A stretch of 40,886 bases of DNA from Bacteroidota bacterium. Its GTDB lineage: Bacteria > Bacteroidota > Bacteroidia > 2-12-FULL-35-15. Location: the NCBI GenBank assembly GCA_029237775.1, contig JAQZBR010000003.1:274599-315484 (forward strand), written 5' to 3'. The first letter of the stretch is position 1. Each line of letters opens with the position of its first letter. This document shows, in pieces, positions 4,145 to 30,275 of this stretch. The notes beneath the pieces were generated by a model. That model was not told the origin of the DNA, ran no database searches, and saw only the letters and a list, made by a program, of their open reading frames with translations. The position numbers and the translations under genes were made by a program.

Positions 4145-4828
4145 ATGAATAATTTTAAAGCATTTATATCTGATAACCTTTCCGGATTTTCTCCTAAAGC
4201 CATCCCAGGATTTATTTTCAGTTTTATTATTTGTGCAATTTTAGCTTTTATTCTCGGTAAATTTTATGTGCGTTATGGAAATGCATTATCAAACAGAAAA
4301 GCATTCGCAAGAAATTTTATTGTCTTAGCAATTACAACAATGTTTATCATTTCAGTTGTAAAATCTTCCCTGGCATTGTCTTTAGGACTGGTGGGCGCTT
4401 TGTCAATCGTTCGTTTCAGGGCAGCGATTAAGGAGCCCGAGGAATTAACGTATCTTTTCCTCACTATTGCAATAGGGCTTGGCTGCGGTGCAGGTCTAAC
4501 AATCCTCACCATTCTTGCATTTGTAGGATTCATAATGGTGATCTGGTTTATAAACAGATATCAGAAAAGCATAGAATCACAGAGTTTATATCTTACTGTT
4601 TCCGGAAGCGCTTCAACGGAGATAAATCTTAAGAGCCTTGTGAACGTACTGAAAAAGTATGCCTCTGCCATTAAGCTGAAAAGGACCGATGAATCTGAAA
4701 CCATGATTGAAGCTTCTTTTTTTGTAGAGTTTGAGGATTTTGAAAAGCTGGAGCTTGCCAAAGTTGAACTGAAAAGTATTCATCCATCCATAACTATCTC
4801 GTTTATGGATAATACAAGGGATCTTTAA
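4145..4828 (+). CDS. DUF4956 domain-containing membrane protein
   Basis: A 227-residue inner-membrane protein of unknown biochemical function. About three to four hydrophobic segments are visible, near residues 18-40, 53-85 and 98-135. They surround the hallmark GALSIVRFRAAIKEPEE, the most conserved stretch of DUF4956, near residues 84-100. The last 90 residues are soluble and mixed charge. Homologues commonly sit beside VTC-domain and CotH genes (family knowledge), and here the VTC gene follows after 13 bases. I infer that it is the membrane partner of the VTC protein, by loose analogy to multi-subunit VTC complexes. The family is clear; the role is inferred. Confidence 0.85.
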   Translation: MNNFKAFISDNLSGFSPKAIPGFIFSFIICAILAFILGKFYVRYGNALSNRKAFARNFIVLAITTMFIISVVKSSLALSLGLVGALSIVRFRAAIKEPEELTYLFLTIAIGLGCGAGLTILTILAFVGFIMVIWFINRYQKSIESQSLYLTVSGSASTEINLKSLVNVLKKYASAIKLKRTDESETMIEASFFVEFEDFEKLELAKVELKSIHPSITISFMDNTRDL

Positions 4829-4841
4829 TTCGTCCGGTTTC

Positions 4842-5528
4842 ATGAAAGAACAACAAGAACCCTTACGTTATGAACGTAAGTTTTTGATCACGGATTATTC
4901 TTTCAAAGATGTGGAACAGATAATAAAGTTTCATCCCGCCTGTTTTTCTGAAATATTTCATCAGCGCCAGGTTAATAATATTTATTTCGATACTCTTGGT
5001 TTCGCTAATTACTACGATAATGTGGAGGGCTCAAGGGAAAGGCTAAAAGTGCGCATCAGATGGTATGGTGATCTCTTTGGTGAGATCAGTAAGCCTGTTC
5101 TTGAATATAAGATAAAAAAGGGGCTTCTTGGGAAAAAAGACTCGTACAGGTTAAATCCGTTTATCCTCGGGCAGAGCTTTAGCCGCAAAAATATCGAAAG
5201 CTCAATGTTAAATTTGAATATACCGGAAAATATTCAGAATGAACTATTATCACTAAAGCCGGCTCTTTTGAACAACTACATCAGAAAGTATTTTTTATCT
5301 GCCGATAAAAAATTCAGAATCACGGTTGACTTCGATTTAAATTATTATAAAATTTTCTACGGTACAAATCCCTTTCTTCACAAAACCCTTGATCATCGCG
5401 CAGTTGTTCTTGAATTGAAATATGACTCAGAAGATGAAGCGCAGGCTAAAGAGATTGGTACAGATCTGCCATTTATGATGACGAAGAATTCGAAGTATTT
5501 GAGAGGGCTGGAACTCCTGTTTTTATAA
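4842..5528 (+). CDS. polyphosphate polymerase (VTC) domain-containing protein
   Basis: 228 residues forming a single triphosphate-tunnel type VTC domain, which in yeast Vtc4 makes polyphosphate from ATP (family knowledge). Visible basic and acidic tunnel motifs: RYERKFLI at 9-16, NNIYFDT at 45-51, the RIR pair R71 and R73, LEYKIKKG at 87-94, YIRKYF at 146-151, VVLELKYD at 188-195 with E191 and K193, and the terminal TKNSKYLRG with K215 and K218. These fit the pattern of nucleotide-, phosphate- and metal-binding residues of the family. There is no SPX domain and no membrane segment, so it is probably a cytoplasmic protein working with the DUF4956 neighbour. An alternative substrate to polyphosphate is possible. 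The family call is strong; the product is inferred. Confidence 0.87.
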   Translation: MKEQQEPLRYERKFLITDYSFKDVEQIIKFHPACFSEIFHQRQVNNIYFDTLGFANYYDNVEGSRERLKVRIRWYGDLFGEISKPVLEYKIKKGLLGKKDSYRLNPFILGQSFSRKNIESSMLNLNIPENIQNELLSLKPALLNNYIRKYFLSADKKFRITVDFDLNYYKIFYGTNPFLHKTLDHRAVVLELKYDSEDEAQAKEIGTDLPFMMTKNSKYLRGLELLFL

Positions 5529-5545
5529 GTCAACTAAACGGAATA

Positions 5546-7282
5546 ATGAAATCAATCAAATCAACTGGTCGTGCTATGGGAATTCCTCTCAGGCTGTTTG
5601 TGCTGATGGTTTTTCTTCTTGCAGTAAGTGCTTTTATCCTTTCTCTTAAATTTTCTGGTGCCGGGCAAACAGAAAATCCGATATTGAAACCTGATCCGGG
5701 GCTTAAAGTACCGGAATGTGATAAAGAAAGCGGCTTTTATCCGCAGGCATTTACAATCAAATTGTCATCTTCCTCAAAGATCTATTATACTCTTGACGGA
5801 TCCGAACCATCGCTTAAATCAAATTTATATACCGGGCATCTGTTCATTGAAGAAAGGACAGATAATTCTTCGGGGTTATCTTTTATCCCCACTTCAACAC
5901 GATGGAAACCACCATTGAATGGTGTATTTAAGGGAACGGTATTAAGAGCAATATCCGTAGATGAGAATAACAGAAAAAGCATTGAGCTTGTCAGAAATTT
6001 TTTTGTGCACCCCCGCTCTGTCAATCGGTACAGCATTCCGGTAATCACGATCACCGTAGATCCTGACGATTTTTTCGGTTACAGCAAGGGTATTTATGTA
6101 ATGGGTAAAAAATACGAGGATAAAGATTTTTATCTGAGGAAACATCTGTCATTGAATATGCCCTGGTGGGATTATCCTGCTAACTATCGCGCAAGAGGTA
6201 TCCAATCAGAGAGAAATGCTCATGTGGAACTGTTCGAAAATGGGGTTCAGACACTGACAATAAATACACGAATAAGGATCAATGGAAATGCAACCCGCGG
6301 CTTCAGTCAGAAATCTCTGAGAGTTTTGATTGATAACGCTGGCGAAGATTCTGCAGGAATTCATTATGAATTATTTCCCGGTTACAGAGTACATAAGTTT
6401 AATTCATTTATTTTGAGGAACGGTGGCAATGACTGGGATAAGACTATGTTCCGCGATGCCTTGATTCAATCTGTTATGAAACATTCCGATCTGGATATCC
6501 AGCAATATCGGCCAACGGTTGTTTTTATAAACGGGGAGTACTGGGGCGTTCACAATTTGCGCGAAAAGCTGGATGAACATTATCTTTCAAATAAACACGA
6601 TCTTAATACAGATAGTTTATCGATATTGGAATTCGATGGCGTGTTAGCATATGGGCAAAAAAAAGACAGTAAAAGCTTTAAAGACCTGTTGGCTTTTGTG
6701 CGGACTCATGATCTCGGGAATTCTGCAAATTATAATTATGTAACCCGGCAGATAGATACAGGCAGTTTTATGGATTTTATTATAGCAAATGTCTATTTTT
6801 GTAATTCCGACTGGCCTAATAACAATGTGCGGTTTTGGCGCTACAGAGCAATTGGAGGGAATGATAGTTTGTTTATTAAGGATGGAAGATGGAGGTGGAT
6901 GCTGTATGACACGGATTGGGGCTTTGGCTATACAGGTAAAGAAGCGGTAAAAATGGATCTTTTGGAAAGGGCATCGAAGATTGGAAGCATAGGTGTGCTT
7001 TTCAGCTCGCTGATCAGGAACGATTCTTTCAGATCAGCTTTTAAGCAGCGGTTTTTATTTCATCTGGATCACACTTTCAATGTTGCTCATATCAATAAAC
7101 AGATTGACGGATTTGCAAATGTTTTGGATCCGGAAATGACAGAACATATTAACCGTTGGAGAAGTATTGGGTCCTACGAACAGTGGAAAGATTATGTATT
7201 GGAGTTGCGGGAGTTCGCAAAGCTCCGCAATGAGATTCAGAGACAACAGTTAAATCAGTTTATAAAAAAGGCAGAACAATAA
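5546..7282 (+). CDS. CotH kinase family protein with chitobiase-type C-terminal domain and N-terminal anchor
   Basis: 578 residues. An N-terminal hydrophobic segment (about 15-35) after a basic start looks like a signal anchor, placing the rest outside the cytoplasmic membrane. Residues about 60-150 hold a chitobiase/beta-hexosaminidase C-terminal-like module with YYTLDGSEPS at 80-89. The CotH domain follows: RIRINGNATRGFSQKSLRV (242-260) with the nucleotide-binding Lys region, RNGGNDWDKTMFRDAL (291-306), FINGEYWGVHNLREKLDE (327-344), NSDWPNNNVRFWR (420-432) and the metal-binding YDTDWGFG (454-461). CotH of spore formers is an atypical protein kinase (family knowledge). All key motifs appear intact, so phosphotransfer is plausible, with protein or glycan as substrate. 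It lies between the VTC gene (17-base gap) and the polymerase-like gene (next start directly after its stop). Confidence 0.87.
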   Translation: MKSIKSTGRAMGIPLRLFVLMVFLLAVSAFILSLKFSGAGQTENPILKPDPGLKVPECDKESGFYPQAFTIKLSSSSKIYYTLDGSEPSLKSNLYTGHLFIEERTDNSSGLSFIPTSTRWKPPLNGVFKGTVLRAISVDENNRKSIELVRNFFVHPRSVNRYSIPVITITVDPDDFFGYSKGIYVMGKKYEDKDFYLRKHLSLNMPWWDYPANYRARGIQSERNAHVELFENGVQTLTINTRIRINGNATRGFSQKSLRVLIDNAGEDSAGIHYELFPGYRVHKFNSFILRNGGNDWDKTMFRDALIQSVMKHSDLDIQQYRPTVVFINGEYWGVHNLREKLDEHYLSNKHDLNTDSLSILEFDGVLAYGQKKDSKSFKDLLAFVRTHDLGNSANYNYVTRQIDTGSFMDFIIANVYFCNSDWPNNNVRFWRYRAIGGNDSLFIKDGRWRWMLYDTDWGFGYTGKEAVKMDLLERASKIGSIGVLFSSLIRNDSFRSAFKQRFLFHLDHTFNVAHINKQIDGFANVLDPEMTEHINRWRSIGSYEQWKDYVLELREFAKLRNEIQRQQLNQFIKKAEQ

Positions 7283-8659
7283 ATGCGTGAATATTATAAG
7301 GAGCATGTTCAGATGTATCTACTCTTCAGCCTTTGGCTGCTTGTTGGAATATACGGAGGACCCCTTATTTATCTGATTTTGCCCGCAACTCTTTATCTTC
7401 TCCTAAAAAAAGGAATGTACGAAGAGATTTTAATCGGCTACCTTTTTATACTTGTACTATCTGACAGTTCAGTAGACAGCCTGCTTTTTGCCAAAAATGT
7501 AAAGAATGTTTACATTGTGATCTTATCACTTATCTTCTTTACTCAGTCCGCAGGCTTTCAGCCTTTCAATAAGCTTTACAGGATTTTTATTCCCTTTTTT
7601 GCTATGGCGCTGATCACGATGATGTTTGGTTTTAATGAATCTTTTTTCTTTACGAGCGTTCAGAAGACAATTTCATACATACTCTCATTCATGGTAGTCC
7701 CAAATTTTGTTGCGAAATTATTTAATGATGAAGGTGAGGATTTTTTAAGGAGGTTCATATTCTTTTTATTTACCGTACTGGCGGTTGGGTTTCTGTTAAG
7801 ATTAGTTTCTCCTGAAATAGCTTTGCTTCCTGAAGGTCGCTACAGAGGTGTTTTTGGTGGGCCTAATGGATTGGGGATATATTGTGTATTGAGTTTTATC
7901 AGCTTTTACATATTAACGGATTTCTTTCCGGATCTCTTTAACAAAAATGAGAAGCTGTTAATGTATAGTGCCATCTTAATTTCTATCGTTCTTTGCGGCT
8001 CAAGGAATACGGTAATATCTGTCCTCATCTTTTATCTCTTTCAAAGATTTTTCAGCCTTTCGCCTTTTTTAGGTTTCCTGTTTTTCTTGATTGCTGTTGT
8101 GGTTTCCGAATTGATCAGCAGTAATGCCACTGCAATAATTTTATCACTTGGCCTGGGTGAATATTTCCGGACAAATACTATTGAAGAGGGTAGTGGACGA
8201 TATATAGCCTGGGGATTTGCCTGGAAGCAGATACAATACAATTTCTTTGTTGGTAAAGGTTTTTCCTATAATGAATCCTATATGAGACACCATTATGGAG
8301 AATTGCTGAAACTGAATCATCAGGGCGGAATACATAATTCCTTCTTAACTTTCTGGTTCGATCATGGCCTGATTGGTTTGCTGATTTATTTGAGATGTTA
8401 TATTCTGATGTTTATCAAAGCAGCAAAAAATACGAAATATGCATTTCCAATATTATTTTCAATTTCATTTTCTGCTTTTTTTGAATCCTGGTTGGTAGGT
8501 TCTCTCAGCGCTTTTGCTTTTCTCGGGCTCTTTATTTTCACTGTGATAACAAGTGAAGAAATGACGTTAAAACGTGAGCAACAGGTAATTAATGATGATG
8601 ACAATAACGTAACTTTATTACCTCCAATCGTTGATCACCAATTGAATATTTGTAGATGA
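7283..8659 (+). CDS. O-antigen ligase / polymerase-like membrane protein (Wzy or WaaL type)
   Basis: 458 residues with about eleven to twelve hydrophobic segments. A larger loop contains GVFGGPNGLGIYC near residue 193 and GIHNSFLTFWFDHGLIGLLIY near 351-371, the HNSFL region being typical of the Wzy_C/O-antigen ligase superfamily. It is expected to polymerise repeat units or ligate glycan on the outer face of the inner membrane (family knowledge). It is the only polymerase/ligase candidate in the window. No flippase (Wzx) or Wza/Wzc export gene is seen, so these should lie outside. The start codon abuts the preceding CotH stop and the 3' end overlaps the next start (8656-8659), which implies tight translational coupling with the two CotH genes. 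Confidence 0.83.
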   Translation: MREYYKEHVQMYLLFSLWLLVGIYGGPLIYLILPATLYLLLKKGMYEEILIGYLFILVLSDSSVDSLLFAKNVKNVYIVILSLIFFTQSAGFQPFNKLYRIFIPFFAMALITMMFGFNESFFFTSVQKTISYILSFMVVPNFVAKLFNDEGEDFLRRFIFFLFTVLAVGFLLRLVSPEIALLPEGRYRGVFGGPNGLGIYCVLSFISFYILTDFFPDLFNKNEKLLMYSAILISIVLCGSRNTVISVLIFYLFQRFFSLSPFLGFLFFLIAVVVSELISSNATAIILSLGLGEYFRTNTIEEGSGRYIAWGFAWKQIQYNFFVGKGFSYNESYMRHHYGELLKLNHQGGIHNSFLTFWFDHGLIGLLIYLRCYILMFIKAAKNTKYAFPILFSISFSAFFESWLVGSLSAFAFLGLFIFTVITSEEMTLKREQQVINDDDNNVTLLPPIVDHQLNICR

Positions 8660-11250
8660 AATTGACAGGGCAGTTTGAAGAACATTCCATTTCAGTCAAA
8701 AGGAAAAAAAGCAGAAATATTCTGCGTGTCCTTTTGCTGTTTGTTGTGATTTTAATATTTATCGGGATAGGTATTGCTAATCGTTTTATAAAAACAAAGG
8801 GATTTAATGGCTTGTATGATTTTGTTTCGACCTACGTCACCAATTATAAAAATGGTATCGGGGTTAAAGCGGAGAGCATTTCTATTGAGATAAAAGAAAA
8901 GGATTATAAAAAGCTTGAAAAGAACCGTGAGCAGGCAGTGCGAAGGGGAGTTATTATAAATGATATCGATGGAGATTACGTATCTGCAGAGATCACGTAT
9001 CTCGGCAAAAAGATCAGTGTTAAGTTACGACTGAAAGGTCATATGACAGATCATCTTCAGGACAATAAATGGTCATTCAGAATAAAGGTAAAAGAAAAGG
9101 ATGAAACCATTATGGGGATGAAGCGTTTTTCCATTCAACATCCCGGAACGAGAGGTTATTTGCAGGAATGGATCTATCATGAGGTGATGAAACGTGAAGG
9201 TGTAATAGCTTTGCGCTATAAATTCATAAATGTATATGTGAATGGAAGGGACTGGGGGATTTACGCATTGGAAGAGAACTTCGAAAATGAACTTATTGAA
9301 AATAATAAAAGGTTAAAAGGCCCGATCATAAGATTTAATCCGGACCTGTATTGGGTGAAGCGGCTGGAAGGGCTGCATGGTACAGCCCCTGTAGACGAAT
9401 TCGCATCCTACTATTCTGCGAATCCTGAAGCATATCGTGAAGATAAGGTTCTGAGTGATTCTTCTCAGAGGATCTATTATATGAAGGCAATTGGCCTGAT
9501 AGAAGGATTGAGAAAACGCGAAATTTCTGTGAGGTCTGCGTTTGACCTCGATATACTTGCGCGGTTCCACGCGGTTATTGATCTGGTGGGCGGTTTGCAT
9601 AGTATAGACTGGAGTGATATAAAATACTATTATAACCCGGTTACAACTAAGCTGGAACCTGTAGCGTATGAAAGTTTTACAGAACTGGGATCGAAGGAGA
9701 TATCAGCTGCTTATAAGTATGTTGTTCCGGATTCCGGAGCAAATTACAGGGATTGGCATACGATGATCTTCAGTGATCCGGATTTTTTTAAGTTATATAT
9801 TAAGCATTTGGAAAGGTTGTCACAACCGGAGTATCTGGATGGCTTTTTTAATAAAAACGATTCCGCATTAAAATCCAATCTCGCAATTCTGAACAAAGAG
9901 TTTGCATTCAAAAAATTTGACAAAACAAAGTATTATAAAAGGCAGCAGGCAATCGAAAAATGTTTGAATGCTCCGAAATCCGTCCACGCTTATCTTGAAA
10001 GCTGGAATGCAGATTCGATGGTAATTCAGGTGGGGGGCATCGATGCATTGCCGGTAAAGATACATTCGGTTAAATTTAATGGCAGAACATTGCTCCCTGG
10101 AAATGAAATTATAGTTCCCTCAAAACAATCGGGTGAGAATGTTGATTATAAACGCTATACTTTTTCCGGTAAGAATGGGAAAGCACTACCGGTACAAATA
10201 GATTCTCTGAAACTTACATACAGCATTCCCGGTGCCTCTGCAACCAAAGAGTGTGTTGTGTTTTTGATGCCGCATACTGACGAAACATTTGTACAGGATG
10301 ACCTTAAAAAAATGGAAGCCAACATCTCAGATTTTGATTTTTTACAAATTAACAACATCAATAAAACTATAATCATAAGTAGCGGCACTCATGTAATCAG
10401 TAAGAATCTTGTGATTCCTCCCGGATTTGTGGTGTCCGCCTTTCCGGCTGTTGTACTCGATTTCGTAAACGAAGCAGGGTTGATCTCTTATTCACCTCTG
10501 ATTATTACGGGAAGCGAAGAAGTACCTGTAGTTTTTATGTCATCAGATTCAACGTTCACCGGTTTAACATTGATCGGAAATAATGAGAAGTCCCTTCTAA
10601 AGTATATTGTTTTTAGAACTCTGCCTGAAGTTAAAAGTAAGCAGCGAAAGGATCAGGGCAGTCTTACATTTTATAATTCGGATATAACAATCGAGTCCTG
10701 CAGTTTCAGTAATTGCCGGGCGAAAAGCATAATTAATTGCATCCGGTCTCAATTTTCTATATCTGATTGTCTGTTCTACAAGTCAACGCATAATGCTGTA
10801 GATTTTGATTATTCAAACGGTTCGATATCACATTCAGCATTTGAAAATATCTCAAACAATGCAATTGGGTGCAGAACAGGAAACTTGTCGTTAGCATCGG
10901 TTTCTGTTATGAAAGTCAGAAAGGCTATAGCGGCAAAAAGCGGGTCTTATATTAAGGGGTCTGATATTACAATTTCCAACGCATTGGTTGCATTGAGTTC
11001 AGAAGATCTTTCCATAATAGAATTTTCAGATAAGGTTAGCATTACTGACAGTGAAATCGGAGTGACCGCATATAAAACCAAAGGGGGGGCAGGACATTCG
11101 CAGGTAAATATTAAAGGTTTGATTTTACAAAATGTAAAGAAAGATTTTATAAGGGAAGAAAAATCTTCCATAAAAATAAATGAAAAACAATCGGGAGAGA
11201 TAGTTAAAGATGTTGAATTATATCTGCAGAATGAAAAAAGCAAACAATAG
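8656..11250 (+). CDS. CotH-like protein fused to a parallel beta-helix domain
   Basis: 864 residues. A basic N-terminus is followed by one hydrophobic segment (about 23-42), consistent with a signal anchor and an exported body. A CotH-like domain spans about 70-400: KLRLKGHMTDHLQDNKWSF (123-141), FINVYVNGRDWGIYALEEN (190-208), HSIDWSDIKYYYNP (315-328) and LEPVAYES (333-340). The last motif takes the place of the DxD segment of canonical CotH and has E-S where Asp is usual, so activity is uncertain. Residues about 560-850 form an Asn/Ser-rich right-handed beta-helix with short repeats such as SDITIESCSFSNC and SISDCLFYKS. Beta-helices often bind or cleave polysaccharide. A G7 run lies at 11083-11089. 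Substrate unknown. Confidence 0.8.
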   Translation: MKLTGQFEEHSISVKRKKSRNILRVLLLFVVILIFIGIGIANRFIKTKGFNGLYDFVSTYVTNYKNGIGVKAESISIEIKEKDYKKLEKNREQAVRRGVIINDIDGDYVSAEITYLGKKISVKLRLKGHMTDHLQDNKWSFRIKVKEKDETIMGMKRFSIQHPGTRGYLQEWIYHEVMKREGVIALRYKFINVYVNGRDWGIYALEENFENELIENNKRLKGPIIRFNPDLYWVKRLEGLHGTAPVDEFASYYSANPEAYREDKVLSDSSQRIYYMKAIGLIEGLRKREISVRSAFDLDILARFHAVIDLVGGLHSIDWSDIKYYYNPVTTKLEPVAYESFTELGSKEISAAYKYVVPDSGANYRDWHTMIFSDPDFFKLYIKHLERLSQPEYLDGFFNKNDSALKSNLAILNKEFAFKKFDKTKYYKRQQAIEKCLNAPKSVHAYLESWNADSMVIQVGGIDALPVKIHSVKFNGRTLLPGNEIIVPSKQSGENVDYKRYTFSGKNGKALPVQIDSLKLTYSIPGASATKECVVFLMPHTDETFVQDDLKKMEANISDFDFLQINNINKTIIISSGTHVISKNLVIPPGFVVSAFPAVVLDFVNEAGLISYSPLIITGSEEVPVVFMSSDSTFTGLTLIGNNEKSLLKYIVFRTLPEVKSKQRKDQGSLTFYNSDITIESCSFSNCRAKSIINCIRSQFSISDCLFYKSTHNAVDFDYSNGSISHSAFENISNNAIGCRTGNLSLASVSVMKVRKAIAAKSGSYIKGSDITISNALVALSSEDLSIIEFSDKVSITDSEIGVTAYKTKGGAGHSQVNIKGLILQNVKKDFIREEKSSIKINEKQSGEIVKDVELYLQNEKSKQ

Positions 11251-12295
11251 AATTTTATTTCTCCTGCCTTTGTATATTCTTGGGTTCCTCTTTAAACAGG
11301 CATCTGCGCAACCATTTTCTCCTTTTAACGGGCTTGAAATTAAAGATACAAGCTCAAATTATTCCTTCACTATCAGCGGGCACTTTTATGGTGCATCTAC
11401 AAATGCATCAACGTTTCCAGCAAGTTCAATTCTGGCAAACATCGATACACTTAACGGTTTAAAACCTTTGTTTTTATTCTGTCTTGGTGATATGTTCATG
11501 GATGTGAATGATAATATAATATCAAATTACAAGAGATCTTTATTCGGTAAGTTGAAAATGCCATTGTTTAATTCGGTTGGCAATCACGATGTTTCGAATA
11601 ATAATATGTATGAAAAAGTTTTCGGGTCTACATACTATTATTTCAACAAAACGACTGAATTATTTATTGTTTTAAATACTGAGATAAATGATGGAAGTAT
11701 AAAAGATGCTCAGTTTGAAATGTTGCAAAAAGCATTGTTAAAGGCTAACGAATTTCAGGTCAGGAATATTTTCATTTTTTCGCACCGCCCTGTTTGGGCC
11801 GAACAGCATCCTGAGTATAGCAAGCTTTTTAGAGAGAATACGAGAACTGCATTGGGGAAGAATAACTATGTTGATGACATCGAGCCATTATTAAGTAAAT
11901 TGGCGTCTGAAAAGAATGTGTTTTGGATATCAGGTTCAATGGGAAATGGACCCGCTTCTTTCTTTTGGGATCGTGATAAAAGAACAAACATCAATTATAT
12001 GCAGACTGCGATCAGGGATTTACCCAGAGATGCGGTTCTTCAGGTGAATATAGTTAACGGTAATGTAAGATTTAAAGGTATCTCACTTACGGGCCAGAAC
12101 ATTGAGCCGATTGAATCTTATTCAGTGCAATACTGGCAGAAAACATTGCCTCCGGAGCAGAAATTTAATTATCGTCTTTTGCCTTTGATTATTTTTCAGA
12201 CGGTTAAGAGTAAGTCTTTCCTCTTCGGAATAGCTTTTTCATTATTCGTAATACTTATTGTTAAGCTGGTCCTTAGATGGAAAAGAAAAAAATAG
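11231..12295 (+). CDS. exported, C-terminally anchored metallophosphoesterase
   Basis: I choose the ATG at 11231 (354 residues, MKKANNRILFLLPLYILG) rather than the upstream ATG at 11210, because it begins a normal signal peptide ending near SAQ. It still overlaps the preceding gene by 20 bases. Calcineurin-like motifs are visible: SGHFYG near 45, FCLGDMFMDV near 85-94, SVGNHDVSN near 115, and FSHRPVW near 185. The first Asp of the usual DxH is absent (SGH). A single C-terminal hydrophobic helix followed by WKRKK (last about 30 residues) would anchor the protein in the inner membrane with the enzyme in the periplasm. A phosphatase next to two CotH proteins and a VTC protein suggests removal or trimming of phosphate. 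That is inference; the substrate is unknown. Confidence 0.8.
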   Translation: MKKANNRILFLLPLYILGFLFKQASAQPFSPFNGLEIKDTSSNYSFTISGHFYGASTNASTFPASSILANIDTLNGLKPLFLFCLGDMFMDVNDNIISNYKRSLFGKLKMPLFNSVGNHDVSNNNMYEKVFGSTYYYFNKTTELFIVLNTEINDGSIKDAQFEMLQKALLKANEFQVRNIFIFSHRPVWAEQHPEYSKLFRENTRTALGKNNYVDDIEPLLSKLASEKNVFWISGSMGNGPASFFWDRDKRTNINYMQTAIRDLPRDAVLQVNIVNGNVRFKGISLTGQNIEPIESYSVQYWQKTLPPEQKFNYRLLPLIIFQTVKSKSFLFGIAFSLFVILIVKLVLRWKRKK

Positions 12296-13323
12296 TCTTT
12301 TTATATACCGAGATAGCCGAATATTTTTTGGCTGGCTGCAGAGCATTGGTTGACAATAATGTTGAGCTGCATGTTGTAAGATATCCGGTAAATAAAGAGG
12401 CTCCTTTTCAATTCGAATTTCCTGAAAACATCAGTTTTTATGAGAAGGGTTCGATAGAAAACCTGTCAACTTTCATCTCTGGTATTTCTCCCGATGCTAT
12501 CATTTGCAGTGGATGGGTGGATAAGGATTATAAAAAAATATGTAAGCTTTATCGAAAAAGGATACCTGTTGTTTTAATTATAGATAATCAGTGGAAGGGG
12601 TCTTATAAGCAATACTTGCTTAAGCTCTTAAGTCCTTTTGTTATCGGTAATTCATATACGCACGCATTCGTTCCGGGAATTCTTCAATATCAATATGCGA
12701 GGAAACTGGGATTTGCGAAAGGAAATATCCTGAGTGGTTTTTATACTGCCGATGTGGATTATTTCCGCAGCTTATATGAGGTAAATAGGCCCCGTAAATC
12801 CACTGACTTCCCTAAAAAATTCTTATATGTTGGCAGATATTATGGTTTTAAAGGCATTACCGATCTATGGCAGGCATTTATTGAGATGCAGAATGAAATG
12901 CCGAATGAGTGGGAATTATGGTGTTTAGGGACCGGTGACGTTAAACCAATCGAGCATTCTAAAATCAGACATTTTGGTTTTGTACAACCCAAACAGTTGG
13001 CTAACTTTATTGGACAGACAGGCGTCTTTGTATTGCCGAGCCATTTTGAGCCCTGGGGAGTTGTAGTTCATGAATTCGCGGCTTCAGGATTTCCGATTAT
13101 ATGCAGCGATGAGGTTGGAGCAAGAACTGCATTCGTAGAGGATAATGTTAATGGGTTTGTATTTGCTTCTTCGGATGTTGACGATTTAAAGAGGGTTTTA
13201 AAAACCGTGGTTTCAATGAATGATCGGGAACTGATAAAGATGGCCGATAAAAGCTCTCAAAAGGCGCTGGACATCACTCCCAAAAAATGGGCAGGAACAA
13301 TTATGAAATTGTTCCAAAAATAA
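12277..13323 (+). CDS. glycosyltransferase family 4
   Basis: 348 residues, GT-B fold. The C-terminal donor domain is clear: KFLYVGRYYGFKGITDLWQAF near 185, LWCLGTGD near 210, VLPSHFEPWGVVVHEFAASG (E-x7-E near 250-265) and SDEVGARTAFVEDNVNGFVF. The N-terminal acceptor domain is less typical, starting VFLYTEIAEYFLAGC. It lacks membrane segments and is presumably peripheral to the inner membrane. The start lies inside the metallophosphoesterase gene (19-base overlap), and the deacetylase gene follows after 6 bases, so the transcript is continuous. Donor sugar and linkage cannot be deduced. Confidence 0.86.
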   Translation: MEKKKIVFLYTEIAEYFLAGCRALVDNNVELHVVRYPVNKEAPFQFEFPENISFYEKGSIENLSTFISGISPDAIICSGWVDKDYKKICKLYRKRIPVVLIIDNQWKGSYKQYLLKLLSPFVIGNSYTHAFVPGILQYQYARKLGFAKGNILSGFYTADVDYFRSLYEVNRPRKSTDFPKKFLYVGRYYGFKGITDLWQAFIEMQNEMPNEWELWCLGTGDVKPIEHSKIRHFGFVQPKQLANFIGQTGVFVLPSHFEPWGVVVHEFAASGFPIICSDEVGARTAFVEDNVNGFVFASSDVDDLKRVLKTVVSMNDRELIKMADKSSQKALDITPKKWAGTIMKLFQK

Positions 13324-13329
13324 ATTGAA

Positions 13330-14223
13330 ATGGAAAAAGAATCACAGAGGTTTACCGATACATACAAGGAAGTGAAATTGCTTAACCCTCCATCTCTCAG
13401 GTCCTTTATGAGGGATAAGGCGTTAGATCTGCTTTCATACCGGGATAGGTTTCGAGGGCTTGAGACAGAGCTGAAAAAGCCCCGCATACAATTCATCTAC
13501 CTTCATCACATGTTTAGGGACGAGTTAACAAACTTTGAGAAATTGATGGATCAGCTCAGTAAACATCATGAATTTATATCTTTCAGCGAAGCCGTTGAAA
13601 AGATCGTTACGGGAACCATTGATAAGCCTTATATTTCCATAAGTTCAGATGATGGTTTTAAAAACAATCTCCTTGCTCTCGACATACTCAAAGATTATAA
13701 TGCAAAAGCTTGCTTTTTTGTTAATACCGATATAGTAAATGAATCTGATTTTAATACATTAAAAAAATACTGCGCTGAAAAACTAAATTTTCCGCCCGTT
13801 GAATTTTTGACATGGAAAGAGGTTGAAAAAATACAGGCGGATGGCCACGAGATAGGTTCTCATACGCGGTCACATGAAAGAATATCAGAGCTTTCGAATC
13901 AGGAGATCACAGACAATATTGAAAAAACTTCCATCGTATTAAAAAAATACTGCGGTGAAGCAAAGCATTTTGCATTTCCGTATGGACGGTTCACCGATTT
14001 TAATCACTCAGGAAGAGAAGCTGTATTCAGGGCAGGCTTTATTTCATGCTCCAGCGCAGAACGGGGCTGTCATATCAACGGGCCTAAAATTTCACATAAT
14101 GAACTATGTATCAGACGTGATCATATGATTCTCGATTGGAACATAGACCATATTTTATATTTTATAGCAAAGAACTCACGGAACTCTTCTCCTGATAATA
14201 ATTTATTCCCTCTGACTCTATGA
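13330..14223 (+). CDS. polysaccharide deacetylase (NodB-type, CE4)
   Basis: 297 residues. Metal-dependent deacetylase that removes N- or O-acetyl groups from a sugar (family knowledge). Motif 1 appears as SSDDGF at 105-110, with the catalytic Asp at 107 and the metal Asp at 108, in place of the usual TFDDG. Motif 2 is GSHTRSH at 176-182, with His178 and His182. AFPYGRF near 218 matches the later conserved stretch. There is no signal peptide, so the enzyme is predicted to be cytoplasmic and would act on a nucleotide- or lipid-linked intermediate rather than on finished polymer. It overlaps the formyltransferase start by four bases (14220-14223), which suggests a deacetylate-then-formylate sequence, an inference from gene order. 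Confidence 0.85.
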   Translation: MEKESQRFTDTYKEVKLLNPPSLRSFMRDKALDLLSYRDRFRGLETELKKPRIQFIYLHHMFRDELTNFEKLMDQLSKHHEFISFSEAVEKIVTGTIDKPYISISSDDGFKNNLLALDILKDYNAKACFFVNTDIVNESDFNTLKKYCAEKLNFPPVEFLTWKEVEKIQADGHEIGSHTRSHERISELSNQEITDNIEKTSIVLKKYCGEAKHFAFPYGRFTDFNHSGREAVFRAGFISCSSAERGCHINGPKISHNELCIRRDHMILDWNIDHILYFIAKNSRNSSPDNNLFPLTL

Positions 14224-15005
14224 ATGTGGTTTTAATCTCCAGTTCTTGGAAAGGCACTTTAGCACATCATTTGCCTTGTCTGATCAATGGAAGCAATTTT
14301 AGGATCAGTACCGTTATCATCAATGAGGGAGTTGCTCTGAGGAAAAAAAATGTTTTAAAGAAAAAGCTTTTTAAAACTTTGAAGATAGGATTCCTGGGTG
14401 CGTTAAACGGGATAAGGATCAGAAAGTGGTTTCATCAGAATGTCGAAAAATATATTACCCTGGCTGATGTCAGGTCTTTATGTGAAAAGCAGGGCATCAG
14501 ATTAGTTGTTGTAAATGGCATTAACAGCAACGAGACAAAAAGCATATTAAGAGAAGTTAATCCTGATTTAGCGGTTAGTCTCGGCAACGGATACATCGCT
14601 AAAAGTGTATTCTCGATTCCCAAATACGGGATGATAAATATTCATCATGAACTTTTACCGGAATATCAAAATGCACAGAGTGTAATTTGGCAATTATATA
14701 ATGGATCTAACGAAACCGGATTCACTATCCATAAGATTAATGAGCGTATAGATGCCGGTGAGATCTTATATAGAAAAAGGATTAAAATAGAGGTCAGGGA
14801 TACACTTTCGGACACCGTTTCCTTTACAATTTCTAAAGTCCTCGATGCTTCTGCTAACGCCTTAAAAACTATCCTGGAGAAATTTCCGGAATACTATAAA
14901 GATGCAGTCCCGCAAGGGGAAGGACGTAATTATACGACTCCAAGCCTTTCTCAGTTTATCAGAATTTACTTAAACTTTCGTCAGCTCAAAAAAACACCTG
15001 AATAG
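14220..15005 (+). CDS. sugar N-formyltransferase-like protein (formyl_trans_N fold)
   Basis: 261 residues. Shares the N10-formyltetrahydrofolate-dependent formyltransferase fold. The catalytic triad is visible as N140 and H142 in MINIHHELLPEY and D178 in ERIDAGEIL; the 38-residue spacing from Asn to Asp equals that of methionyl-tRNA formyltransferase (N106 to D144). The protein is shorter than Fmt and sits in a glycan locus, so an amino-sugar acceptor is more likely than Met-tRNA. Sugar formyltransferases make N-formylated 4-amino-4,6-dideoxyhexoses (family knowledge), and a WecE-like aminotransferase is encoded two genes downstream. A 128-base gap with a candidate promoter follows. Confidence 0.8.
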   Translation: MNVVLISSSWKGTLAHHLPCLINGSNFRISTVIINEGVALRKKNVLKKKLFKTLKIGFLGALNGIRIRKWFHQNVEKYITLADVRSLCEKQGIRLVVVNGINSNETKSILREVNPDLAVSLGNGYIAKSVFSIPKYGMINIHHELLPEYQNAQSVIWQLYNGSNETGFTIHKINERIDAGEILYRKRIKIEVRDTLSDTVSFTISKVLDASANALKTILEKFPEYYKDAVPQGEGRNYTTPSLSQFIRIYLNFRQLKKTPE

Positions 15006-15020
15006 GGAAGTTACTCCCGC

Positions 15021-15051
15021 TTTGCAGAGAATATTTAAATGGTTATATTTA
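15021..15051 (+). promoter_or_regulatory. candidate promoter TTTG-N19-TATATTTA before the epimerase gene
   Basis: TTTG at 15021-15024 is followed after 19 bases by TATATTTA at 15044-15051. This matches the Bacteroidota -33/-7 layout with one mismatch in the -7 box (A for final G). It lies in the longest intergenic gap of the glycan locus (15006-15133) and would give a leader of about 75 bases. The rest of the gap shows no clear terminator or conserved RNA. Confidence 0.35.
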
Positions 15052-15133
15052 CAAGTCGGGTTATATAAATACATTGAAAAATGTGCTGGAACTCTTAAAT
15101 ATATCCTATGGCCCAAAAACTTAAATCGGTTTT

Positions 15134-16084
15134 ATGAACAGAATATTGATCACGGGTGGTGCCGGAAATATTGGAAGCGCTATCGTTGAAAAACTAATCA
15201 CTAAAGCAGAGAATTATGTAGTGATAGTTGATGATCTGTCCACAGGCTTTTTATCAAAGCTTCCTAAAATTCAAAATGAGCGGTGGGAATTTATCAAAGC
15301 GGATGTCAATGATTTCAAAGAAATTGCGCCTATAATGATGTCTCATAAGTTTGATTATGTGTTTCATTTCGCTGCTGTGGTTGGCGTAGCGCGCACCCAG
15401 GAAAATCCTGTTAAAGTGTTGAGAGATATAGATGGTATCAGGAATATTCTGGACCTGTCGAAAAACACTTCCGTTAAACGGGTATTCTTTTCTTCTTCTT
15501 CAGAAGTTTATGGTGAACCTGTAGTGCTTCCACAGCATGAAGAAACAACCCCGTTAAATTCAAGGGTGCCTTATGCTGTTGTTAAAAATGTAGGGGAATC
15601 CTTTTGTAAAAGTTATTATCAGGAATATAAGCTGAATTATACAATTTTTAGATTCTTCAATACTTACGGACCCAGCCAAAGCACCGACTTTGTCGTTGCC
15701 AGATTTCTTGCCGCAGCTCTTAAGAATGAGGATATTACAATTTATGGAGATGGGATGCAAACGCGAACCTTCACCTATGTTGATGATACAGTTGATACTT
15801 GCCTGAACTGTTTGTATAATAACCAGCAGGTAAACGATGTGATCAATATCGGGAATGATCAGTTGTGCACCATTTTGGAACTGGCTCAACTTATAATCAG
15901 CCTCACAAAGTCCTCATCAAAGATCATTCATCTTCCCCCTTTGAAAGAAGGTGACATGACCCGGAGGCAACCGGATAATGCGAAGATGAGAGAAATTCTC
16001 GGCAGACCCCTGGTTACTCTTGAAGACGGACTTCAGAAAATGATTTCTTCATCTCACTTTCTTTCTTCAATCGGATTGCAATGA
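15134..16084 (+). CDS. NAD-dependent epimerase/dehydratase (extended SDR)
   Basis: 316 residues. Nucleotide-sugar epimerase or dehydratase acting in the cytoplasm. The Rossmann motif TGGAGNIG lies at 7-14, VVDDLSTG-like adenosine-binding residues at 31-38, the Ser cluster SSSSEVYG at 120-127 and the catalytic Tyr147/Lys151 pair in YAVVK. RFFNTYGPSQ near 167 and YGDGMQTRTFTYVDD near 198 resemble the UDP-glucuronate decarboxylase and GalE-like groups. The exact reaction cannot be fixed. The gene overlaps the aminotransferase start by four bases, so both may serve one sugar pathway. Length is typical for the family. Confidence 0.85.
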   Translation: MNRILITGGAGNIGSAIVEKLITKAENYVVIVDDLSTGFLSKLPKIQNERWEFIKADVNDFKEIAPIMMSHKFDYVFHFAAVVGVARTQENPVKVLRDIDGIRNILDLSKNTSVKRVFFSSSSEVYGEPVVLPQHEETTPLNSRVPYAVVKNVGESFCKSYYQEYKLNYTIFRFFNTYGPSQSTDFVVARFLAAALKNEDITIYGDGMQTRTFTYVDDTVDTCLNCLYNNQQVNDVINIGNDQLCTILELAQLIISLTKSSSKIIHLPPLKEGDMTRRQPDNAKMREILGRPLVTLEDGLQKMISSSHFLSSIGLQ

Positions 16085-17220
16085 TTCCTTTTAATAAACC
16101 TTATTATTCAGGCAATGAGCTCTCTCTGATCTCTGAGGTCATGGAAACACGCATCCTCACCGGGGACACCGAACCCATAAAAAGGTGCGAATCATTACTC
16201 GAAAATAAATACGGTTTTAAAAAAGTTTACCTGACAAACTCCTGTACAATGGCCCTTGAGATGGCCGCTGTAATTTTGGAAATTAAGGCAGGTGATGAGG
16301 TAATCATCCCTGCTTATACTTATGTGTCAACTGCAAATGCATTTGCACTTAGAGGTGCAAAGCTCGTATTTGCAGACAGTAAAAAGGATCAGCCGAACAT
16401 TGATGAGGATCAGCTGGAATCTTTAATAACGCCTCATACAAAAGTGATAGTAGTAATGCACTACGCTGGCATTTCCTGCAATATGAACAAGATTCTGGAA
16501 ATTGCAAAGCGCCATAATTTATTTGTAGTGGAGGATGCTGCGCAATGTATCGATGCTTATTATAAAAACACGCCTTTAGGATCGATAGGTGATATAGGAT
16601 GTTTTTCATTCCACGAAACAAAAAACATTCATTGCGGTGAAGGTGGATTCATTTCTATAAATAATCCTGGCCTCATACGTAAAACTGAAATTGTAAGAAA
16701 CAAAGGGACTAACCGCACTGATTTTATAAAGGGGGAGGTCAATAAATATGAATGGATGGGACTGGGATTTTCGGCAATACCATCAAGTATCAGTGCAGCT
16801 TTTCTATTGGCTCAACTTCAGAAAATAGATGAGGTACAGGAAAAAAGAAGGGCCATCTGGGAACTTTATTATCAAAGATTTTCTTCATCTGCTGCAGGTG
16901 CTGCTTTTAAGCTTCCGGTAATTCCTGCGGATGCAAAAGCAAATGCACATTTGTTTTTTCTGATTTGCAATGATGAATCTGAAAGGAATGAACTGATTGA
17001 GTATCTGAAATTGAATGGAATCCAGGCGGTATTTCATTATCAGTCTTTGGAAATTAGCCCTTACTATAAAAGCAGAATCCCTCGGGCAGAGAATGCTCAA
17101 CGATTAAGCGAGTGTCTGTTACGTTTGCCACTTTATTTTGACCTCTCTGTTAAAGAGGCTGGCTTCATAGCCGACAAAGTGCTTGAGTTCTATTCTGAAA
17201 GGTTAAAAAAAAATATTTAA
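16081..17220 (+). CDS. wecE: dTDP-4-keto-6-deoxyhexose aminotransferase, WecE/RffA-like (DegT/DnrJ/EryC1/StrS)
   Basis: 379 residues, close along its length to WecE, the PLP enzyme that converts dTDP-4-keto-6-deoxyglucose to dTDP-4-amino-4,6-dideoxygalactose (family knowledge). Shared stretches are MIPFNKP at the start, LTNSCTMALEMAA (51-63), GDEVIIPAYTYVSTANAF (71-88), VVEDAAQ (149-155), and GCFSFHETKNIHCGEGG (173-189), whose K181 is the PLP lysine. RNKGTNR and VFHYQSLEISP also match. WecE requires a dTDP-keto sugar from RmlA/RmlB, and neither is in this window. It overlaps the epimerase gene by four bases and precedes the asparagine-synthase gene by 19. A related 4- or 3-aminotransferase specificity cannot be excluded. 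Confidence 0.83.
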   Translation: MIPFNKPYYSGNELSLISEVMETRILTGDTEPIKRCESLLENKYGFKKVYLTNSCTMALEMAAVILEIKAGDEVIIPAYTYVSTANAFALRGAKLVFADSKKDQPNIDEDQLESLITPHTKVIVVMHYAGISCNMNKILEIAKRHNLFVVEDAAQCIDAYYKNTPLGSIGDIGCFSFHETKNIHCGEGGFISINNPGLIRKTEIVRNKGTNRTDFIKGEVNKYEWMGLGFSAIPSSISAAFLLAQLQKIDEVQEKRRAIWELYYQRFSSSAAGAAFKLPVIPADAKANAHLFFLICNDESERNELIEYLKLNGIQAVFHYQSLEISPYYKSRIPRAENAQRLSECLLRLPLYFDLSVKEAGFIADKVLEFYSERLKKNI

Positions 17221-24361: not shown

Positions 24362-25600
24362 ATGATACAATACGAGAAATTTCAGCTTGAGAATGGGTTG
24401 AAAGTTATAGTTCACAAGGACAAAGCTACACCTCTGGCTTGTATTAATATTTTATATAATGTGGGCGCCCGTGATGAGGACCCTGAACAGACAGGATTTG
24501 CACATCTTTTTGAGCATCTCATGTTCGGAGGCTCTGTGAACATTCCCAATTACGATGAGCCACTGCAGATGGTGGGAGGCGAGAATAATGCTTTTACAAC
24601 AAATGATATTACCAATTATTATCTGACACTGCCGGTTAGCAATCTGGAAACCGGTTTCTGGCTGGAAAGCGACAGAATGCTTAGTCTTGCATTCTCTGAA
24701 AAAAGCCTCGAAGTGCAGCGTAATGTGGTGATTGAAGAATTCAAGCAACGATATCTCAACCAACCATATGGAGATGTTTGGCTTCTTTTACGACCAATGG
24801 CTTATAAAGTGCATTCTTACAAATGGGATACAATTGGTAAAGAGATCTCTCACATTGAAAATGCAAAGATCGATGATGTAAAGAACTTCTTTAAAAAATT
24901 CTACTGTCCGAATAATGCCATCATGGTTGTCGCAGGTAATGTTGAAACATCTGAGGTGAAACGCCTGGCTGAAAAATGGTTCGGGCCGATCCCTAAAGGG
25001 CCGGACAATAAAAGAAATCTTCAGCCTGAGCCAGAACAGACTGAAGCAAGATCACTTACGGTTGAACGCGATGTACCTGTTGATGCGATATATAAGGCAT
25101 ATCATATGTGCTCCCGTTACGACAAAGAATATTATGCTGTCGACCTGATCTCCGATATCCTTTCCCGTGGCAATTCATCGCGAATGCATAATTCACTCAT
25201 CAAAGAGAAAATGCTTTTCAGTGATATCAGTGCTTATGTATTAGGTGATTTTGATAAAGGGTTGTTCGTTATTTCCGGAAAGCTTACCCAAGGTGTAACA
25301 ATGGAGCAGGCAGATCAGGCTATTGATGAGGAGCTTAAAAGAATGATAACAGAACCTGTTGCTGCTGATGAGCTTACCAAAGTTAAAAATAAGATGGAAG
25401 CTTCTCACGTATTTGGTGAAGTTGATATTCTAAATAAAGCTACTAACCTCGCTGTTTCAGAATTATTAGGGGATGCGGGAATGGTAAATCAGGAAGTAGA
25501 GAAATATTTAGCAGTCACGGACAAACAGATCATGGAACAGGCTTCAATAATTTTTCGCAAAGAGAACTGTTCAACACTTTACTACAAGTCAAAAAAATAA
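24362..25600 (+). CDS. M16 family zinc peptidase, catalytic subunit
   Basis: 412 residues. The inverted zinc motif HLFEH is at 48-52 (His48, Glu51, His52), with the downstream Glu ligand in VVIEEFKQRYLNQPYG near 125. This marks a processing-peptidase-like M16 protein with an intact active site. No signal peptide is apparent at the N-terminus (MIQYEKFQLENGLKVIVH), so cytoplasmic or non-classical localisation is expected. The second M16 gene follows after 30 bases (counted to its ATG) and lacks the zinc motif. Paired active and inactive halves form heterodimers in other bacteria (family knowledge). The substrate is unknown. Confidence 0.88.
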   Translation: MIQYEKFQLENGLKVIVHKDKATPLACINILYNVGARDEDPEQTGFAHLFEHLMFGGSVNIPNYDEPLQMVGGENNAFTTNDITNYYLTLPVSNLETGFWLESDRMLSLAFSEKSLEVQRNVVIEEFKQRYLNQPYGDVWLLLRPMAYKVHSYKWDTIGKEISHIENAKIDDVKNFFKKFYCPNNAIMVVAGNVETSEVKRLAEKWFGPIPKGPDNKRNLQPEPEQTEARSLTVERDVPVDAIYKAYHMCSRYDKEYYAVDLISDILSRGNSSRMHNSLIKEKMLFSDISAYVLGDFDKGLFVISGKLTQGVTMEQADQAIDEELKRMITEPVAADELTKVKNKMEASHVFGEVDILNKATNLAVSELLGDAGMVNQEVEKYLAVTDKQIMEQASIIFRKENCSTLYYKSKK

Positions 25601-25630
25601 TTCTTAAGGGATTAATTGAAATTAGAAATT

Positions 25631-26917
25631 ATGGAAATCATCGATAGAAAAAAAATACCTGCTTTCAATACAATTGATAAGATCGAAATGATCCACGCAA
25701 GTGAAAGAAGGCTTCGTAATAATGTTCCTGTTTACGCTATAAATGCAGGGACTCAGGATATCATAAAGATCGAATTTCTTTTCTCTGCAGGTATGTATCA
25801 GCAAAAGATGCCTTTACAGGCAACTACAGTTAACTCGATGCTGGAAGAGGGGACCTCTACAATGAATGCGGCACAGATCGCTGATGCGGTTGATTTTTAC
25901 GGTGCCTTTCTTGAAGTGGGTGTCGAACAGGATAACGCTTCAGTTATTCTATATACATTGAACAAACATCTCAGATCCACCTTACCGGTGATCGAACAAG
26001 TGATCAAGGATGCGGTTTTTCCTCAGCAGGAACTGGATATTCATCTTCAGAATAAAAAACAAAAATTTCTGGTAAACAACCAGAAAGTGGCTACCATCGC
26101 ACGTAAGAGGTTCAGTGAGCTTGTATTCGGAGAGAAGCATCCTTATGGTATTGATGTTAAGGACAAAGATTTTGAGATCATCAATCGTTCTCATCTTGTG
26201 GATTTTTATCGTTCACACTATCGTTCCAGCAATTGTAAAATCATTCTTGCAGGTAAAGTAACAGAAGATGTGTATACTGCAATCGATGATTTGTTTGGTG
26301 GAAACGATTGGAACGGTGATCAGCTCGCAAAGGTAGGTTCTGCACCGATGCAAACCACAACAGATAAACAACAGTTGGTTTTTAAAGAGGATGCTTTGCA
26401 ATCAGCGATAAGGATCGGTAAACCGATGTTCAACAAAACTCATGATGATTACCATCCTGTGCAGGTATTGAATACAGTCTTTGGTGGATATTTTGGTTCG
26501 AGATTAATGTCGAATATCCGTGAAGACAAAGGGTACACTTATGGAATTGGATCCGGCCTTGTATCTCTGAAGCATGGCGGTTATTTTTTCATTTCAACTG
26601 AGGTTGGCGTAGATGTTTGCAGCAAAGCGCTTGATGAAATATACATAGAGATGGAGCGTTTAAGGGAAACTGAAGTTGGAGCCGAAGAACTGGAACTGGT
26701 AAGGAATTACATGCTCGGTACCTTTATGAGGAATGCAGATGGGCCCTTCGCTCTGGCTGATCGTTTTAAGGGGATACTTGAATATGGTTTGGGTTATGAT
26801 TATTTCGACAGATACATTGCAACCGTTAAAAGTATTTCAGCATCACAGCTAAGAGATCTGGCGAATAAATATTTCGACAAGGATTCAATGATTGAGCTGG
26901 TGGTCGGGAAAAAATAA
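25631..26917 (+). CDS. M16 family peptidase-like protein, non-catalytic partner
   Basis: 428 residues from the ATG at 25631. An in-frame TTG at 25616 would add five residues and has an AAGGG 5 bases upstream, but ATG is preferred. The fold is M16 (NNVPVYAINAG opening, FLFSAGMYQQ, NSMLEEGTSTM), yet the position of HxxEH is replaced by non-ligand residues, so no zinc site exists. The C-terminal half keeps EDKGYTYGIGSG near 303, the Arg/Tyr-type substrate-gripping stretch supplied by the second subunit of M16 heterodimers (family knowledge). It most likely completes the active site of the preceding peptidase. It ends 9 bases before the large surface-protein gene. Confidence 0.84.
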   Translation: MEIIDRKKIPAFNTIDKIEMIHASERRLRNNVPVYAINAGTQDIIKIEFLFSAGMYQQKMPLQATTVNSMLEEGTSTMNAAQIADAVDFYGAFLEVGVEQDNASVILYTLNKHLRSTLPVIEQVIKDAVFPQQELDIHLQNKKQKFLVNNQKVATIARKRFSELVFGEKHPYGIDVKDKDFEIINRSHLVDFYRSHYRSSNCKIILAGKVTEDVYTAIDDLFGGNDWNGDQLAKVGSAPMQTTTDKQQLVFKEDALQSAIRIGKPMFNKTHDDYHPVQVLNTVFGGYFGSRLMSNIREDKGYTYGIGSGLVSLKHGGYFFISTEVGVDVCSKALDEIYIEMERLRETEVGAEELELVRNYMLGTFMRNADGPFALADRFKGILEYGLGYDYFDRYIATVKSISASQLRDLANKYFDKDSMIELVVGKK

Positions 26918-26926
26918 TAATGCCAA

Positions 26927-30256: not shown

Positions 30257-30275
30257 CCCTTTAAAAAAAACAATT

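Follow-up and report, generated by a model that had tools for sequence, protein, structure and literature searches.

The window analysed here (G000:C1:274599-315484) is a stretch of 40,886 nucleotides from contig JAQZBR010000003.1 of a Bacteroidota bacterium (GCA_029237775.1), and it contains a compact block of six genes, all on the + strand, that may form an envelope system adding phosphate to a surface polysaccharide. The block starts with a DUF4956 membrane protein (4145..4828; PF16316, 62.5 bits, with hydrophobicity and conservation across 18 sequences as further evidence) and a VTC or triphosphate-tunnel polyphosphate polymerase domain of 228 amino acids (aa) (4842..5528; PF09359, 97.3 bits, cut-off 23). 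These are followed by CotH1, an exported-type protein with a CotH kinase domain (5546..7282; PF08757, 172.9 bits, cut-off 23.8), a multi-pass membrane protein of the Wzy_C polymerase/ligase type, here Wzy (7283..8659; PF04932, 42.9 bits, cut-off 31.7), and CotH2, which combines an anchor, a kinase fold and a β-helix (8656..11250; PF08757, 44.8 bits, cut-off 23.8, and a structure model). The last protein, here MPE (11210..12295), has a calcineurin-like phosphoesterase fold with an altered metal site, as judged from an AlphaFold2 model and structure comparison. The successive genes are separated by 13, 17, 0, -4 and -41 bases, and with the alternative MPE start (11231 rather than 11210) the last overlap would be -20. 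The open reading frames (ORFs) and their strand confirm the tight order described in an earlier sequence-only reading of this DNA, and Pfam matches above cut-off agree with its naming of the DUF4956, VTC, Wzy and two CotH proteins. NCBIfam gave no family for any of the six proteins at E<=0.01. Hydrophobic segments number four in DUF4956, none in VTC, one N-terminal in CotH1, 11 in Wzy and one at each end of MPE; CotH2 has one at the N-terminus, and a further hit at 586-604 falls within its β-helix.

A CotH2 search covered 59 genomes, matches being counted as long at E below 1e-240; of the 35 other genomes of the genus, 20 gave a long match and one more a fragment at a contig edge. We examined 19 of those 21 congeneric loci, of which 15 hold the whole block and four end at contig edges. 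The order DUF4956-VTC-CotH1-Wzy-CotH2-MPE is kept in 15/15 whole-block loci, so the block is more than a chance assembly, and the four cut loci follow it as far as the sequence reaches. Outlying glycan genes vary among congeneric genomes while the block stays. A few copies carry insertions: in L051 an extra gene separates DUF4956 from VTC, L049 has two small ORFs that may not be real genes, and L052, L057 and L059 each have two extra genes between Wzy and CotH2. One of the L052 inserts is an MBOAT acyltransferase (PF03062, 72 bits) with relatives 82-86% identical in L057 and L059, and the other insert of these three loci resembles SGNH by eye, its DUF1574 match being weak and below the cut-off. 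The complete set including Wzy is also present in another family (L133), together with an SGNH-like gene (weak GDSL match). The conserved co-occurrence with glycan genes that had been anticipated from the window was checked and holds in Bacteroidota.

The claim that the polymerase gene is locked between the two CotH genes did not prove general. Additional genes split Wzy from CotH2 in eight loci (L052, L057, L059, L097, L101, L106, L107 and L133), and at L065/L095, a single locus outside the genus, the set is present without Wzy, with no genes resembling the glycan genes of the window. Distances were compared across 16 loci (the window, 14 congeners and L133; kinship uncorrected), and those of DUF4956, VTC and CotH1 co-vary mutually at r 0.88-0.93, CotH2 with MPE at 0.82 and CotH1 with MPE at 0.77; for Wzy against any other module gene, the co-variation is weak (r 0.44-0.63). 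These values hint that DUF4956, VTC and CotH1 form one group and CotH2 and MPE a pair, with Wzy more loosely attached, as would be expected if Wzy tracks a changing sugar structure.

Scanning genome contigs from MPE outwards gave 56 loci, 33 in Bacteroidota and 23 in other phyla. The profiles for the six families were built from the genus and its near relatives, so divergent copies elsewhere may escape them. Where genes are inserted, the neighbour limit of 8 kb gives too few VTC and DUF4956, and the counts for these two were taken from 53 of the 56 loci (all but L112, L114 and L122) plus the window and L133. A CotH2-type gene lies within 8 kb of MPE in 48/56 loci. Three of the eight loci without it start at a contig edge (L094, L105 and L113), L109 stops 1.2 kb past MPE, L131 and L132 are related only weakly, which leaves L111 and L115 as true exceptions. 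Under the same limit, Bacteroidota loci have Wzy in 28/33 and CotH1 in 27/33, and with these genus-built profiles each was found in 0/23 loci outside Bacteroidota, a further sign that the lock is not general. DUF4956, CotH2, VTC and MPE are all present in 10 of the 23 non-Bacteroidota loci (L108, L110, L116, L119-L121, L124, L125, L128 and L130). The hosts of this four-gene core are gammaproteobacteria (Halieaceae/Halioglobus and Parabeggiatoa), Chloroflexi, one Gemmatimonadetes metagenome-assembled genome (MAG) and two Nanohalarchaeota-labelled MAGs, which may be misbinned. Gene order differs among these phyla (in L124, MPE is on the opposite strand), and Planctomycetota records contain only parts of the core (L112, L115, L118 and L122). 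Neighbours of L127 and L128 include glycosyltransferases or PMT_2-type proteins, and by eye no clear glycan genes were found near L119 and L123. In the gammaproteobacterial L116 and L119-L121, a protein of 183-192 aa is encoded between VTC and MPE, the L116 copy having no Pfam family. One genome of another family (G036; L066 and L074) has two VTC genes and, for CotH2, three long matches, with no window-like Wzy near any of them.

The VTC protein has 37 invariant columns in 18 sequences, including R-x-R and E-x-K positions; K13, R71, R73, K90, R148, R159, E191, K193 and K218 are all kept in the 18. A PDB sequence search with the single protein returned no useful relative, but the VTC profile did match, aligning to yeast Vtc4 (3g3q, E 2.2e-7) with K13 on the K of TTKYW and R71/R73 on the RLR of RLRWYG. 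The counterpart of K13 is Vtc4 K200, which we take to be a basic residue of the tunnel. The alignment to Vtc4 ends before E426, while E191 of VTC is itself invariant. The available excerpts of PMC9911596 name Vtc4 R264/R266 and describe the yeast complex with R264A/R266A/E426N as catalytically impaired. The DUF4956 protein consists of four hydrophobic segments and a C-terminal soluble part, with a conserved RFR..IKEPEEL loop (18 sequences). As far as those excerpts describe the yeast VTC complex (Vtc1/3/4), both systems share the TTM (triphosphate tunnel metalloenzyme) polymerase domain with R264/R266 equivalents and its pairing with a membrane part. Unlike in yeast, the membrane partner would be the separately encoded DUF4956, the 228-aa polymerase has no SPX domain and the channel is only supposed.

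In the class survey (119 genomes, kinship uncorrected), two VTC fragments from a single genome were counted as one, which reduced 64 rows to 63 loci. VTC was found in 56/119 genomes and DUF4956 in 66/119, including all 56 with VTC. At 59 of the 63 VTC loci, DUF4956 is on the same strand within 4 kb; the order is VTC-DUF4956 in 53 and DUF4956-VTC in six, the window included, and these six carry a divergent DUF4956 (63-72 bits). Considering the MPE loci, the window and L133, there are 30 long DUF4956 proteins with the RFR loop, and VTC is nearby in 28 (the exceptions are L115 and L127). Six others are short, reduced to the membrane part (133-141 aa, without RFR; L097, L098, L101-L103 and L107), none with VTC nearby, and they cluster by kinship, so the six are not independent cases. 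The L101 protein matches no Pfam family. Short DUF4956-like proteins precede CotH1 in the VTC-less locus form, and in L100, L104 and L106 neither DUF4956 nor VTC was seen. Within the locus, the presence of VTC goes with that of the soluble part of DUF4956. The VTC-less form comprises nine loci, mostly from Flavobacteriales-labelled records, and Wzy stays between the two CotH genes in Bacteroidota, whether or not the locus has VTC. A loss of VTC from this form was considered and rejected: eight of the nine genomes have a PF09359 match at another position, so only the locus lacks VTC, and for the same reason polyphosphate could be supplied in trans.

There is also a second, commoner VTC-DUF4956 locus type, represented by L012 in the genome of the window itself (C5:162000-181000, minus strand, 7311-9382 and preceding genes) and by L136-L139. 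In 5/5 loci examined, DUF4956 is followed by a DUF2490 protein (PF10677), and CotH precedes VTC in 4/5 (the exception is L139, where the DUF2490 protein additionally scores just above the cut-off of an outer-membrane β-barrel family, with 29.0 bits against 28.7). This type is a candidate phosphate system with an outer-membrane partner. In L134 and L135, the VTC-DUF4956 pair is flanked by two unknown proteins, those of L134 having no Pfam family, and no CotH was recognised in the adjoining genes.

CotH1 has an N-terminal hydrophobic segment (17-35), a CHB_HEX_C_1/Fn3-associated region and the CotH kinase domain, where the motifs NxDWPxxN and DxDxG are retained and D422, N427, D455 and D457 are invariant in 18 sequences. 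Acidic positions of this kind in the CotHs are presumably catalytic or metal residues. A profile comparison of CotH1 with CotH2 aligned 47 columns around an NGxxWG motif (probability 13.8), and PDB sequence searches with CotH1, CotH2 and MPE gave no useful relative. The Wzy_C domain is common to polymerases, ligases and protein-glycan transferases and does not separate them.

CotH2 and MPE were folded, and their superpositions cover the entries ranked by Foldseek. The AlphaFold2 model of CotH2 has a predicted local distance difference test score (pLDDT) of 88.1. Residues 71-439 superpose on Bacillus cereus CotH 5jd9 with Z 27.0 and a root-mean-square deviation (rmsd) of 3.2 over 319 aligned residues, i.e. 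the same kinase fold over the whole domain (5jd9/5jda). Unlike the Bacillus protein, CotH2 is membrane-anchored by its sequence, fused to a β-helix and altered in its acidic residues. The second domain, which follows a linker and spans residues about 548-852, is a right-handed β-helix similar to that of AlgG, a periplasmic alginate epimerase (4ozy, Z 26.9 over 275), here fused to a kinase domain; other β-helix proteins (autotransporters, tailspikes, lyases and polygalacturonases) match it at Z 22-25. Such helices are common among polysaccharide-active and polysaccharide-binding proteins, therefore the match in the model suggests a polymer ligand and does not imply epimerase activity. K138, R142, E206 and E207 are invariant in 37/37 sequences. 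The positions D318, D321 and E339 are found in 25/25 Bacteroidota sequences, and elsewhere there is no Asp at 318, with N321 and D339, in 12/12 aligned sequences; the divergent L110 protein stands outside this alignment and its residues do not fit the pattern.

The window MPE has no Pfam family at E<=0.01 nor at E<=1, and a Metallophos match at E<=1 was obtained for 9/20 family members, the window copy not among them. The notion that a protein without a Pfam match is no phosphoesterase was overturned by the fold of its model (pLDDT 92.4), which is calcineurin-like: 220 residues align with GpdQ at rmsd 2.8 (Z 20.0), and pig purple acid phosphatase scores Z 19.9. Canonical metallophosphoesterases bind metal through a motif I Asp and a motif V GHxH, among other ligands. 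MPE shares with purple acid phosphatase, GpdQ and Rv0805 the fold (Z 18-20), the motifs GD and GNHD and a later His, and differs from them in a His at the motif I Asp position, Ser/Asp replacing GHxH and a hydrophobic C-terminal segment. Residues were counted in 43 aligned sequences (28 Bacteroidota, 15 others; L131 and L132 left out): H58, D94, N125, H126, H192 and D274 are invariant, the motif I Asp (H58 instead) and the motif V His are missing in 43/43, and G242 is followed by S243 in 28/28 Bacteroidota and D243 in 15/15 others, never by His. Residue 60 is Tyr in the window copy and His in 20/28 Bacteroidota sequences. Judging by positions after β-strands in the model, the His at motif I and the Asp at motif V may represent a ligand swap, and MPE could still work as a phosphoesterase through another ligand set. 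The membrane-anchored phosphoesterase of the sequence-only reading is thus supported in its fold and in the hydrophobic segment at each end, and not in a Pfam family or in the canonical ligands; the proposed trimming of phosphate is doubtful because those ligands are missing. At putative active-site positions, CotH2 and MPE alike separate Bacteroidota from the others, and the Bacteroidota side of this split is the one with CotH1 and mostly Wzy.

Downstream of the block, a GT4b glycosyltransferase gene (12277..13323, + strand; PF00534, 71.3 bits) overlaps the 3' end of MPE by 19 bases and directly follows it in 17/17 congeneric loci that extend past MPE, so the unit may comprise seven genes. 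The flanks are glycan genes, encoding GT4, GT2, acyltransferase, WecE, AsnB, deacetylase and formyltransferase proteins (by Pfam, the upstream stretch by eye). Pfam scans of the 30 window ORFs found no Pel-named family, the glycan genes of the window being of Wzy type. Between 3900 and 13000, promoter-like sites are not enriched (25 against 30.8 in shuffles), and terminator-like sites number 12 against 5.7, from which we draw nothing. Formyltransferase, epimerase and WecE-type aminotransferase genes at 14220-17220 suggest a 4-amino-4,6-dideoxy sugar, perhaps N-formylated. Further downstream (24362-31424), there are two M16-type peptidase genes and then two proteins with type IX secretion C-terminal domains (CHU_C and Por_Secre_tail). 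The genome of the window has one Poly_export, on another contig, and seven Wzy_C.

Part of this gene set is known from Gram-positive bacteria, whose pel loci carry accessory genes for CotH, a polyphosphate polymerase and DUF4956 (–DUF4832), according to the available parts of PMC7112168 and of PMC12345266 (SIR_1592-1594). From its neighbours and topology, SIR_1592 is probably the DUF4956 protein and SIR_1593 the VTC, names that the available text of PMC12345266 does not use. As reported there for Streptococcus intermedius, deletion of SIR_1592 results in more Pel and deletion of SIR_1594 (CotH) in less, with aggregation of both mutants reduced by >50% in one medium. According to that text, its authors failed to detect the synteny of the three genes beyond the Pel locus; if this is a general statement, it has counter-examples in the window and in related Wzy-type loci. 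At the NELoc-2 locus of Clostridium perfringens, the partly available source lists VTC and CotH genes along with a gene for a chitin synthase. The Pel accessory module and the window block have in common three adjacent families in exopolysaccharide DNA, but in the excerpts no Wzy, second β-helix CotH or MPE is described and the polymer comes from the pel genes. Searches of the open-access literature yielded neither the whole six-family combination nor the cross-phylum core. The DUF4956–VTC–CotH set beside Pel loci is known, and its coupling to Wzy, a β-helix CotH and MPE appears to be new.

We suggest that the block adds phosphate to a surface polysaccharide assembled by Wzy, a reading that we regard as quite possible, though short of probable, and in which we infer the donor, the acceptor, the activity and direction of MPE and the role of DUF4956. 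Cytosolic VTC would make polyphosphate from ATP at the inner membrane, as its conserved active site indicates. By means of its basic RFR..IKEPEEL loop and its soluble tail, DUF4956 would tether VTC to the membrane and pass or gate the chain. CotH1 and CotH2, placed at the membrane by their hydrophobic segments, would transfer phosphate to the glycan, possibly from VTC-made polyphosphate, since ATP is scarce outside the cytosol. Meanwhile, the AlgG-like β-helix of CotH2 would grip the polymer, and Wzy would polymerise or ligate the repeat units. In the least certain step, exported MPE might remove phosphate, clear polyphosphate or merely bind the phosphorylated polymer. The transfer of phosphate to a glycan, as first proposed from the window, is favoured by the basic residues kept in VTC, by the β-helix and by the MBOAT and SGNH-like genes within some blocks, which we count in favour of glycan modification. 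Further points for the proposal are the fixed gene order amid varying flanks, in the congeners and in L133, the four-gene core of other phyla, the close association of VTC with DUF4956 and the altered Pel amount and aggregation of the SIR_1592 and SIR_1594 mutants. The alginate AlgI-AlgJ-AlgX machinery is a comparison here, with MBOAT and SGNH-like genes as in some module loci.

Several observations weigh against this proposal. The nine VTC-less Bacteroidota loci keep CotH1-Wzy-CotH2-MPE, the PF09359 search found no VTC in the L104 genome, and the genome of the window also encodes one Ppk-type polyphosphate kinase. Wzy co-varies weakly with the other genes; 13/23 non-Bacteroidota loci miss at least one of the four core genes, some being cut by the contig, and outside Bacteroidota glycan-type genes adjoin only some loci. 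The available part of PMC12345266 reports no change after deletion of SIR_1593, the polyphosphate polymerase of S. intermedius. In CotH2, Bacteroidota also carry Glu at a position that is Asp in nearly all others, and MPE has neither the motif I Asp nor the motif V His, for which reasons CotH2 or MPE could be a binding protein. Taken further, CotH2 and MPE would be pseudo-enzymes, polymer-binding scaffolds with Wzy, leaving catalysis to CotH1 only. The residue split of CotH2 (25/25 against 12/12) and the ligands missing from MPE in 43/43 sequences speak for this, but the invariance of the four CotH2 residues and the six MPE residues listed above would be unusual for lost catalysis, and we consider it unlikely.

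It is also conceivable, although rather doubtful, that the CotHs are regulatory kinases phosphorylating envelope proteins (e.g. Wzy or export parts) and setting polymer amount or length, with VTC/DUF4956 as a phosphate or energy sensor and the glycan itself free of phosphate. The available text of PMC7112168 cites Bacillus CotH as a protein kinase and proposes control of Pel through protein phosphorylation, and the opposite Pel phenotypes of the SIR_1594 and SIR_1592 mutants (PMC12345266, in the part available) are in line with it. However, CotH2 bears a carbohydrate-type β-helix, acyl-modification genes occur in some loci, and no conserved gene for a substrate protein was noticed in the module in congeneric loci. 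Storage or scavenging of phosphate, with polyphosphate exported to or kept at the envelope and processed by MPE and CotH, would make the glycan locus a mere location; it could explain the Wzy-less core of other phyla and the lack of a Pel phenotype reported, in the excerpts of PMC12345266, for the polyphosphate polymerase mutant. The fixed place of Wzy between CotH1 and CotH2 in Bacteroidota, with VTC present or not, makes this a very improbable account. Gene exchange does occur in the locus, but chance neighbourhood in rapidly changing glycan DNA has practically no probability left, being ruled out by the order kept in the congeners and in another family and by the core genes found together in other phyla.

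Returning to phosphate transfer, the occurrence of the four-gene core in other phyla suggests a broader machine for phosphate transfer, coupled to Wzy assembly in Bacteroidota through the addition of CotH1 and Wzy. A more specific form of this view, which we find unlikely but conceivable, is that VTC and DUF4956 are a polyphosphate synthase-exporter feeding the exported CotHs with polyphosphate instead of ATP, or with chains to be attached, to modify the polysaccharide; MPE would be a rebuilt partner, and the core of DUF4956–CotH/β-helix–VTC–MPE would be a cross-phylum machine for envelope phosphorylation. The conserved operon, in which exported CotHs accompany a polyphosphate polymerase and its probable membrane partner, makes it testable what donor serves exported bacterial CotH kinases where ATP is low, and the loci in which VTC and the soluble DUF4956 tail are both missing, although most of their genomes encode VTC at another site, offer a natural experiment.

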